Part shown: one piece after another, positions 1,648-3,255 of the stretch
Layout: the number at the start of each line of letters is the position of its first letter
Position numbering within the stretch: position 1 is the stretch's first letter
Source: Comamonadaceae bacterium CD01
GTDB taxonomy: Bacteria > Pseudomonadota > Gammaproteobacteria > Burkholderiales > Burkholderiaceae_C
DNA length: 35,195 nt
Direction: 5' to 3'
Assembly (NCBI GenBank): GCA_002894305.1
Contig: PGEI01000025.1
Location: 1-35,195, forward strand
Notes under the pieces: generated by a model
Told to the model about the DNA's origin: nothing
Databases searched by the model: none
What the model saw: only the letters and a program-made list of their open reading frames with translations
Position numbers and translations under genes: made by a program

Positions 1648-1680
1648 AACCGCCCTATGCGCAAGCAGGGCGGTTTTTTT
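1648..1680. terminator. Bidirectional terminator between argG and queC
   Basis: AACCGCCCT (1648-1656) pairs perfectly with AGGGCGGTT (1667-1675) around a 10-base loop, followed by a T run on the plus strand. On the minus strand the same stem holds the queC stop codon (1655-1657), so the last queC codons form one arm. The A-rich flank at 1640-1649 becomes a T-rich tail for queC. Confidence 0.85.
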
Positions 1681-2362
1681 CCGTCCACTGCGCCCATCCC
1701 CTGGCGCGCAATTCGCACGCCGGGCATGCGCCGCAGCCGTAGCCCCAGGGGTGCAGGCGCTCGCGCTGGCCCAGGTAGCAGGTGTGGGAATCGCGCCGGA
1801 CCAGCTCGACCAATGCGCTGCCGCCCAGTTCGTGGGCCAGCGCCCAGGTGGCGGCCTTGTCGAGCCACATGAGCGGCGTCTCCAGCGTCAGCGGCCGGTC
1901 GATCCCCAGGCTCAGCGCCACCTGCAGGGCCTTGAGCGTGTTGTCGCGGCAGTCGGGATAGCCCGAGTAGTCGGTCTGCGACATGCCGCCCACCAGCACG
2001 TCCAGCCCGCGCCGGTAGGCCAGCGCCGCGGCCAGCGTGAAGAACAGCAGGTTGCGCCCCGGCACGAAAGTGTTGGGCAGGCCGTCGGCCTGCAGGGCGA
2101 TGGCCACGTCCTCGGTCATGGCGCTGCCGCCCAGCTGCGCCAGCACGTCGACGTTCAGCAGATGGTCGTCGCCGAGCTGTCCCGGCCACGGCATGGCCCG
2201 CATCCCCTCGCGCAGCCGCGCGCGGCAGTCCAGCTCCACGCGGTGGCGCTGGCCGTAGTCGAAGCCGAGCGTCTCCACGTACGGATAGCGCGCCAGCGCC
2301 CAGGCCAGGCAGGTGGCCGAATCCTGGCCGCCGGACAGCAGCACCAGGGCGCGCCGGCTCAT
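1655..2362 (-). CDS. queC: 7-cyano-7-deazaguanine (preQ0) synthase
   Basis: QueC converts 7-carboxy-7-deazaguanine, ammonia and ATP into preQ0, the precursor of queuosine in tRNA. The product has 235 residues (E. coli 231). The PP-loop LLSGGQDS is at residues 8-15. Four zinc-ligand cysteines lie at 195, 210, 213 and 216 in the C-terminal GCGACPAC region. The start is fixed by an ATGA overlap with the stop of yhhQ (2359-2362), which implies translational coupling. The stop codon lies within the argG/queC terminator stem. Confidence 0.95.
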
Positions 2363-3024
2363 GCGGCCGCAGGCGCGGGCGGCGTGCGCATGGCGCGCAC
2401 GATGGCCGCCAGCGCCACGCCGTAGGCGGGAACGAACAGCAGCAGGCTCACGGCCAGCTTGATGACGTAGTCCACCCAGGCGATCTCCACCCAGTGCGCG
2501 GCCATGAAGGCGTTGGGGCTGCGCCAGAAGGCGATGGAGAAGAACGCCGCCGTGTCCAGCGCCTGCCCGAACACCGAGGCCGCCGCGGGCGCCAGCCACC
2601 ACGCGCGGCTTTGCTGGCGGATGCGGTCGAACACCTGGATGTCCAGCAGCTGCCCGAGCACGTAGGCCGCGAAGCTGGCGAAGGCGATGCGGAACACGAA
2701 GGTGTTGAATTCGCCCAGGGCATCCCAGCCGTTGAAGCGCCCCTCATGGAACAGCACGCCCACCACATACGACGCCAGCAGCGCCGGCAGCATGGCGCGG
2801 GTGATGACGCGGCGCGCCGGCGCCTTGCCGATCAGCCGCACCGTGAGGTCGGTGGCCAGGAAGATGAACGGGAAGCTGAACGCCCCCCAGGTGCTGTGAA
2901 AGCCCAGCAGGGTGATGGGCAGCTGCACCAGGTAGTTGCTGGCGATGACGATGGCGATGTGAAGCGCCACCAGCAGGGAGAGGTAAAGGGGCACGCGCGA
3001 CGGCGGTGCCTGAAGCGATGTCAT
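2359..3024 (-). CDS. yhhQ: Queuosine precursor transporter (YhhQ family)
   Basis: This 221-residue polytopic membrane protein of the YhhQ/COG1738 family takes up preQ0 or preQ1. Hydrophobic segments begin near residues 12, 42, 70 and 108, with more towards the C-terminus. Conserved family stretches include [31 protein letters not shown] and [16 protein letters not shown]. It is the first gene of a two-gene operon with queC (ATGA overlap), which supports the queuosine role. The ATG at 3024 has an AAGGA ribosome site 8-12 bases upstream. A 160-base self-complementary leader ends eight bases before that site, suggesting control at translation or early elongation. Confidence 0.93.
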
Positions 3025-3041
3025 GGCAGTCCTTTTTGAAT

Positions 3042-3226
3042 GGAACCTCTGCAATGCCTGGAGCGGAAAGCACGCGCTGCGGATCGGGATGGGATGCGAG
3101 GCGCAGGCCGCAGCGGTGGCCGGAGCCACCGCGAGGACTTGCAACGAAGCAGACCGCCCGAGTCCGCAGATGCGTGCGGCGCTACAGGTGTTGCAGAGGT
3201 TCCTCGATGGGGGCGAGGGAACCCAT
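3042..3226 (-). promoter_or_regulatory. Structured 5' leader of yhhQ-queC (candidate riboswitch or rod-shaped RNA)
   Basis: Nested complementary blocks fold this region into a rod: 3042-3054 with 3191-3203 (13 perfect pairs), 3057-3060 with 3185-3188, 3062-3065 with 3080-adjacent partner 3180-3183, 3070-3075 with 3172-3177, 3078-3083 with 3163-3168, and 3084-3088 with 3157-3161. An 8-bp hairpin at 3113-3132 with a four-base loop caps the rod. The arm at 3198-3206 can instead pair with 3214-3223 (nine pairs, one bulge), so two structures compete. The rod ends eight bases before the yhhQ ribosome site. It does not match the preQ1-I or TPP consensus that I know. Confidence 0.6.
3182..3226 (-). 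CDS. Possible 14-codon leader peptide upstream of yhhQ
   Basis: On the minus strand, ATG at 3226 opens a short frame, MGSLAPIEEPLQHL, ending in TAG at 3182-3184. It spans both arms that form the alternative hairpin (3198-3223), so its translation would alter the leader fold. There is no convincing Shine-Dalgarno. It may be chance; it is listed because of its position. Confidence 0.2.
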   Translation of the reverse strand: MGSLAPIEEPLQHL

Positions 3227-3249
3227 GTTGGCGGTATTGCCGGGGCGCG

Positions 3250-3255
3250 ATTGTA
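3250..3255 (-). promoter_or_regulatory. Candidate -10 for yhhQ-queC
   Basis: The minus-strand hexamer TACAAT, followed by CG, is close to the sigma-70 consensus. Transcription would start near 3243, giving a leader of about 220 bases. The -35 region is weak. Confidence 0.45.

Follow-up and report, generated by a model that had tools for sequence, protein, structure and literature searches.

We identified in the leader of the yhhQ-queC operon of Comamonadaceae bacterium CD01 what reads, judging from sequence, as a class I type III preQ1 riboswitch that is cut in two by a palindromic repeat and is predicted to bind its ligand. PreQ1 is a precursor of a tRNA modification. The leader lies in the window, the whole stretch of 35,195 nucleotides that was analysed, and the coordinates of its features are given in Table 1. 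The reading that we favour, with a probability of about 0.72, is that a 162-bp IS5-like MITE was inserted once in the L3 linker of a type III preQ1 switch and that the split aptamer would still be responsive to preQ1.

Table 1. Features of the yhhQ-queC leader and operon, with positions in the window and the basis of each assignment
Feature	Position	Strand	Basis
5' half of the class I type III preQ1 aptamer, AUGGGUUCCCUCGCCCCCAU	3207..3226	-	same core in the best 80 of 134 yhhQ loci and in E. coli
P1 helix	3226-3222 paired with 3211-3207	-	covariation over 96 leaders
P2 5' strand CCU (anti-Shine-Dalgarno), partner AGG at 3033-3031	3216..3218	-	matches the E. coli structure
L3 linker, 5' piece CGA	3204..3206	-	comparison with uninterrupted relatives
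Palindromic MITE-like element (rod) in the L3 linker, 162 bp, 13-bp perfect ends	3042..3203		dispersed copies, ends, flank duplications
L3 linker, 3' piece AUUC	3038..3041	-	comparison with uninterrupted relatives
3' half: poly-A and Shine-Dalgarno sequence, AAAAAGGA	3030..3037	-	AAAAAGG in 81/81 leaders and E. coli
Competing anti-aptamer hairpin (predicted), aptamer 3223-3214 with element arm 3206-3198, 9 bp, one bulge	3198..3223	-	folding energies, partition function
TACAAT, likely -10 box of the yhhQ-queC promoter (predicted)	3250..3255	-	sequence reading
yhhQ, preQ0/preQ1 transporter gene	2359..3024	-	NCBIfam NF008406, 324.8 bits, above cut-off
yhhQ start ATG; stop TGA overlaps the queC start	3024 (start)	-	sequence reading
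queC, 7-cyano-7-deazaguanine synthase gene, overlaps yhhQ	1655..2362	-	NCBIfam TIGR00364, 191.4 bits, above cut-off

The operon had been proposed from the sequence alone to couple a preQ0/preQ1 transporter gene to queC, and the protein family matches of both products bear this out (Table 1); QueC falls below the cut-off of the stricter model NF008317 (218.9 vs 378 bits). The TACAAT stretch is common to several relatives and is absent in Acidovorax sp. MR-S7. One of the nine genomes of the genus, G001, is the only one without a yhhQ match, which may reflect an assembly gap as this genome is 86% complete.

Type III was reportedly defined in a survey by McCown and colleagues in 2014. In the window, both halves of the aptamer (3226-3207 and 3037-3030) are intact and the palindromic element, hereafter the rod, sits exactly in the L3 linker, which is 169 nt long with the element included. 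The 5' half reads AUGGG-UUCCCUC, which is P1 followed by UU and a pyrimidine-rich loop, as type III requires, and the specificity C is present at 3212, preceded as GCC rather than AC. The loop differs from that of the E. coli RNA by a G that replaces the L2 adenine A13 and by one extra C. The poly-A/AAGG stretch is complementary to the CCU of P2 (3218-3216), a match in complementarity alone. The earlier note on this DNA had seen no known preQ1 aptamer consensus in the leader; the aptamer is present, split around the rod. Its proposal of a riboswitch for a queuosine precursor stands in so far as a riboswitch-type RNA does occupy the yhhQ-queC leader, but the rod is not the aptamer.

The window shares its core with the yhhQ leader of E. 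coli K-12, TTGGGTTCCCTCACCCCAATGGTTAATCAAAAAGG. A structure of this type III member with preQ1 bound has been published (PMC10622847; PDB 8fza as cited in PMC11625349), and in the available text of PMC10622847 the linker GGUUAAUC is that given for the preQ1-bound type III RNA whose structure was solved, and the P2 pairs are C9-G30, C10-G29 and U11-A28. According to the same text, the E. coli L3 begins at the foot of P1, shortening it is tolerated and even beneficial, and the type III consensus, the features of which are described in the accessible part of PMC11625349 as well, permits variation in L3 length and sequence; a linker as long as that of the window is not described in the texts consulted.

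The core GGUUCCCU..CCC, followed by AAAAAGG before the start codon, was found in 80/80 yhhQ loci, which are the best 80 of 134 relatives found, and in E. coli K-12. With the window these loci make 81 leaders, all of which have the type III preQ1-I core. Seven relatives have the window's leader without the rod; in them, an invariant TGGGTTCCCTCGCCCCCAT is followed after a few bases by CAAAAAGGA, or by a sequence very similar to it, and then by the start codon. Because uninterrupted relatives and E. coli share the core, the window aptamer is read as cut in two. UUCCCU is present in 81/81 leaders and the run of C's is preceded by CG in 31/81 and by CA, AA or TA in 50/81; the G for A13 and the extra C of the window are both common in this set. 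The linker measures 5 nt in 70/81 leaders, and the four linkers longer than 8 nt are all folded. Acidovorax sp. Leaf160 (L118, also L216) has an unrelated linker of 33 nt with a hairpin of -15.7 kcal/mol, a second folded insert in L3, and in some other relatives the linker is moderately extended, unfolded and richer in A's.

Covariation of P1 was analyzed in 96 leaders, composed of the best 80 of 134, the window, E. coli and 14 of 18 further loci. L215, L217, L225 and L227 were dropped as no yhhQ was found, L221 was kept although none was found, and the leader of L216 is identical to that of L118 and probably comes from the same organism. The two outer, variable positions of P1 are paired in 96/96 and 93/96 leaders. 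The pair adjoining GGG-CCC is U-A in 93, C-G in 2 and A-U in 1 leader, and the next pair out is A-U in 87, U-A in 4, C-G in 1 and G-C in 1, with three mismatches. The pair beyond P1 is of a standard type in 21% of the 96 leaders. The observed pairing was reached in 3/5000 shuffles (8 distinct end combinations). P2 (CCU/AGG) is invariant and thus cannot be tested by covariation. Sequence, P1 covariation and gene context together identify the aptamer type. Five loci from other families of the class, outside Comamonadaceae and Alcaligenaceae (L222, L224, L226, L228 and L229), have type III leaders before yhhQ with changed P1 pairs (UC/GA, AC/GU, GA/UC, UU/AA). The aptamer pattern occurred in 1/200 genomes drawn evenly over many families of the order, with or without yhhQ; the controls for two wider searches with the pattern gave 1/399 and 2/369 genomes. 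In the text available of each source, type III is called almost exclusively gamma-proteobacterial (PMC10622847) or almost exclusively a feature of Pseudomonadota (PMC11625349), and the Comamonadaceae and Alcaligenaceae members agree with the latter statement.

An Rfam scan of the window leader gave no match, and at a permissive threshold three matches appeared with E values of 1.3 to 8.7, far below the cut-offs. The leaders of the intact relatives scanned gave no match, and RF00522 (PreQ1) exceeded its gathering cut-off of 39 bits in none of nine genomes, with two weak matches, neither of which lies at yhhQ. The E. coli K-12 yhhQ leader (L182:9100-9240), a published type III member, has no Rfam match at E <= 10 either, and for this reason the silence of Rfam is uninformative here. 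Type III leaders lie outside the reach of the PreQ1 model of Rfam, for which reason those before yhhQ stay unannotated.

The rod was described earlier as a perfect 13-bp stem (3042-3054 with 3191-3203) continued by nested stems and an apical 8-bp hairpin, and all of these are present in the sequence. Folded alone (162 nt), the minus strand, which is the mRNA strand, reaches -98.8 kcal/mol (z -9.55, 0/200 shuffles as good). The plus strand is more stable (-117.5 kcal/mol, z -11.7), as is expected of a DNA palindrome. With the leader as query against 60 genomes (the window's and relatives), matches at E <= 0.01 were obtained in at least 26, some of them weak, with at least 13 in one genome; most matches lie inside the rod and some are short and weak. 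In G001, which belongs to the same genus, one copy spans the rod from end to end. A set of 67 dispersed copies was compiled in which both flanks are complete, leaving out the three leader copies and entries with cut flanks. Terminal inverted repeats (at least 13/16 pairs) were found in 48/67 of these copies vs 1/201 shuffled controls, and a length of 161-169 bp is shared by 39 of the 48. The window copy has terminal inverted repeats of 13/13 bp. Among 24 copies whose ends are of the GGCAACGC type, the 4-bp flanks on the two sides are identical in 14; 11 of these read YTAR, the target choice of the IS5 family. No clean target duplication is seen at the window copy. The exact 13-bp end occurs in 4/35 genomes and both ends in the window genome alone, and a degenerate end pattern with two mismatches gave 93 matches in 12 genomes vs 139 for the reversed-pattern control, which is noise apart from five exact matches. 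The rod is thus, as far as sequence comparison tells, a copy of a dispersed palindromic repeat of about 161-169 bp that has the features of an IS5-like MITE.

The 2.7-Mb genome G033 holds at least 13 close copies of an element of about 161 bp (L008, L030, L044-L054), many with intact 4-bp duplications, so that it was perhaps recently mobile there. The possibility that the rod is 6S RNA, for which an Rfam check had been suggested, was rejected as the rod has no match to RF00013. The 6S RNA candidate of the window's genome is located elsewhere (G000:C111:61576-61749; 44 bits, E 2e-7, slightly below the cut-off of 46.4 bits).

The same element lies at the same place in the leaders of Acidovorax sp. 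MR-S7 (locus L091, same sequence as L178 of genome G167) and Diaphorobacter nitroreducens (L093), and it was found at yhhQ in at least 3/399 genomes of the family, the window's included (E <= 1e-30). The three leader copies group together as a clade (support 100/97) when 33 copies of the element are placed in a tree. The tree of yhhQ alone counts against a common insertion, as the carriers are not a clade in it; a clade is not rejected (p-AU 0.33). We infer that the element was inserted once and that this insertion is common to the leaders of the window, D. nitroreducens and MR-S7. The three carriers differ pairwise at 21/161, 29/158 and 40/157 positions of the element and at 37/214, 44/213 and 55/213 third codon positions of yhhQ. 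In a three-way alignment, 50/162 columns are variable in the element vs 0/31 in the aptamer (Fisher p 6.5e-5). The ribosome site, a tail of 9 nt, would be conserved regardless, and the fair figure is therefore that of the 5' half alone, in which 0/21 columns vary (p 0.0012). Over the helices of rod and aptamer, 94.6% of the paired cells are kept in the three leaders. Four double changes were found, all in the apical helix (11/500 shuffles as high), and in the end helix six pairs are each broken in one species. The longest invariant run of the element is formed by its first eight columns; of the eight columns of the last arm that pair with them, three vary among the carriers.

That both halves have remained unchanged since the insertion suggests that the riboswitch still works. 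In the mechanism that we propose, the MITE would have landed in L3, between P1 and the poly-A/Shine-Dalgarno tail, and the inserted RNA would fold to a rod with both ends meeting. The linker that faces the pseudoknot would then amount to about 3 + 4 nt plus the width of one helix, and the likely reading is that the rod is tolerated by the riboswitch because its ends close on themselves. The split aptamer is predicted to bind preQ1, upon which CCU would pair with AGG of the Shine-Dalgarno sequence and the preQ1-bound leader would shut off translation of yhhQ and, presumably, of the overlapping queC. The strongest alternative, which we hold to be unlikely, is that the element broke the riboswitch, so that preQ1 control of yhhQ-queC was lost in the carriers and the aptamer halves are relics. 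A 162-nt insert within a pseudoknot of about 35 nt, element pairings that compete with the aptamer and the general expectation that a MITE insertion is by default neutral or harmful all speak for a broken switch. It is difficult to reconcile with an aptamer that has no variable column, in the 5' half as well as overall, while the element and the third codon positions of yhhQ have diverged as given above.

The competing pairing of 3198-3206 with 3214-3223, put forward in the earlier note, does exist: the first 32 nt from the aptamer start fold in this way at -11.8 kcal/mol vs -4.6 kcal/mol for the aptamer stem alone. All energies and probabilities of this hairpin refer to nested structures, computed without ligand or pseudoknot. 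With 32 nt made, the aptamer GGG is paired with the first arm of the element in all three leaders (P 0.94 to 0.96), and it returns to the aptamer at 180-184 nt, once the last arm is made, with back-and-forth switching at 100-140 nt in two of the three leaders. Once the leader is complete, the probability of P1-like pairing is 0.85 for the window (rod intact), 0.97 for D. nitroreducens and 0.01 for MR-S7, where a fold that masks the aptamer is the minimum (-98.8 vs -96.1 kcal/mol), which counts against a working switch. It is conceivable, though doubtful, that the switch has come to include the transposon, whose first arm GAGGAACC would act as an anti-aptamer and mask GGUUCCCUC during synthesis of the rod, until strand exchange with the last arm sets GGUUCCCUC free at about nt 184. 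The GGAACC end of the element is complementary to GGTTCC of the aptamer, and GGGAACC ends are also found in copies away from yhhQ, which favours accident over function. If the masking arm were real, preQ1 could be sensed only when nearly all of the leader has been made, and a mobile element would have given rise to a natural composite riboswitch.

It is very unlikely that the conserved 5' half is another feature of yhhQ leaders, for example a short leader peptide starting AUG GGU UCC. AUG opens the core in 78/81 leaders and the loop and tail are invariant, as such a peptide might have it. The C run, however, has five C's in 40/81 leaders, four in 40/81 and three in one, and a change between four and five would shift any reading frame, on which ground the peptide was rejected; moreover, P1 covaries and the E. 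coli member binds preQ1 in the structure cited above. Least credible is the new riboswitch class of the earlier note, in which the rod itself would be the aptamer for a queuosine precursor: the stable fold adjoining a transporter and synthesis gene pair and the double changes in the apical helix point towards it, but the rod is a dispersed repeat with many copies away from yhhQ, present in just 3/81 leaders that all have the type III core, its fold is more stable on the plus strand than on the mRNA strand, and the known aptamer accounts for the gene link.

In the literature searched, which covered few subscription journals, no report was found of a MITE inserted in a natural riboswitch. MITE-made riboswitches are called conceivable in the available part of a MITE review (PMC10969869). 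A paper on a Bordetella manganese riboswitch was considered as a precedent and rejected, since its available text describes a duplication in the exporter gene and no insert in the riboswitch. The leader described here is a natural test of the modularity of a minimal pseudoknot riboswitch, in which a very small aptamer appears to carry a folded insert of 162 nt within its linker and to have been kept by selection in three species. If the favoured reading is true, L3 is a site that accommodates extra folded RNA without loss, which would be useful for engineering, and the leader is a case of a mobile element inside a regulatory RNA that did not destroy its function.

Compared to known systems, the window leader shares with the E. 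coli yhhQ switch the gene, the position at the ribosome site, P1, the UU motif, the pyrimidine loop UUCCCUC, the specificity C before the 3' strand of P1, the poly-A stretch and AAGG. It differs in L3, which holds the 162-nt element in the window and is 8 nt long in E. coli, and in the loop, with its G for A13 and one more C. The rod family has in common with IS5-like MITEs a length of about 161-169 bp, terminal inverted repeats, a stable palindromic RNA and, in copies with GGCAACGC-type ends, 4-bp flank duplications that are mostly YTAR, whereas the window copy lacks a clean duplication. MITEs are typically AT-rich, according to the part of the review available (PMC10969869), and the rod family is G+C-rich. 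In this it resembles BRE, the Betaproteobacterial repeat element, which in the accessible text of PMC3110155 is likewise G+C-rich, intergenic and found in Comamonadaceae and Alcaligenaceae; by that description, through which alone the two were compared, BRE differs from the rod in being about 90 bp long and often in tandem.
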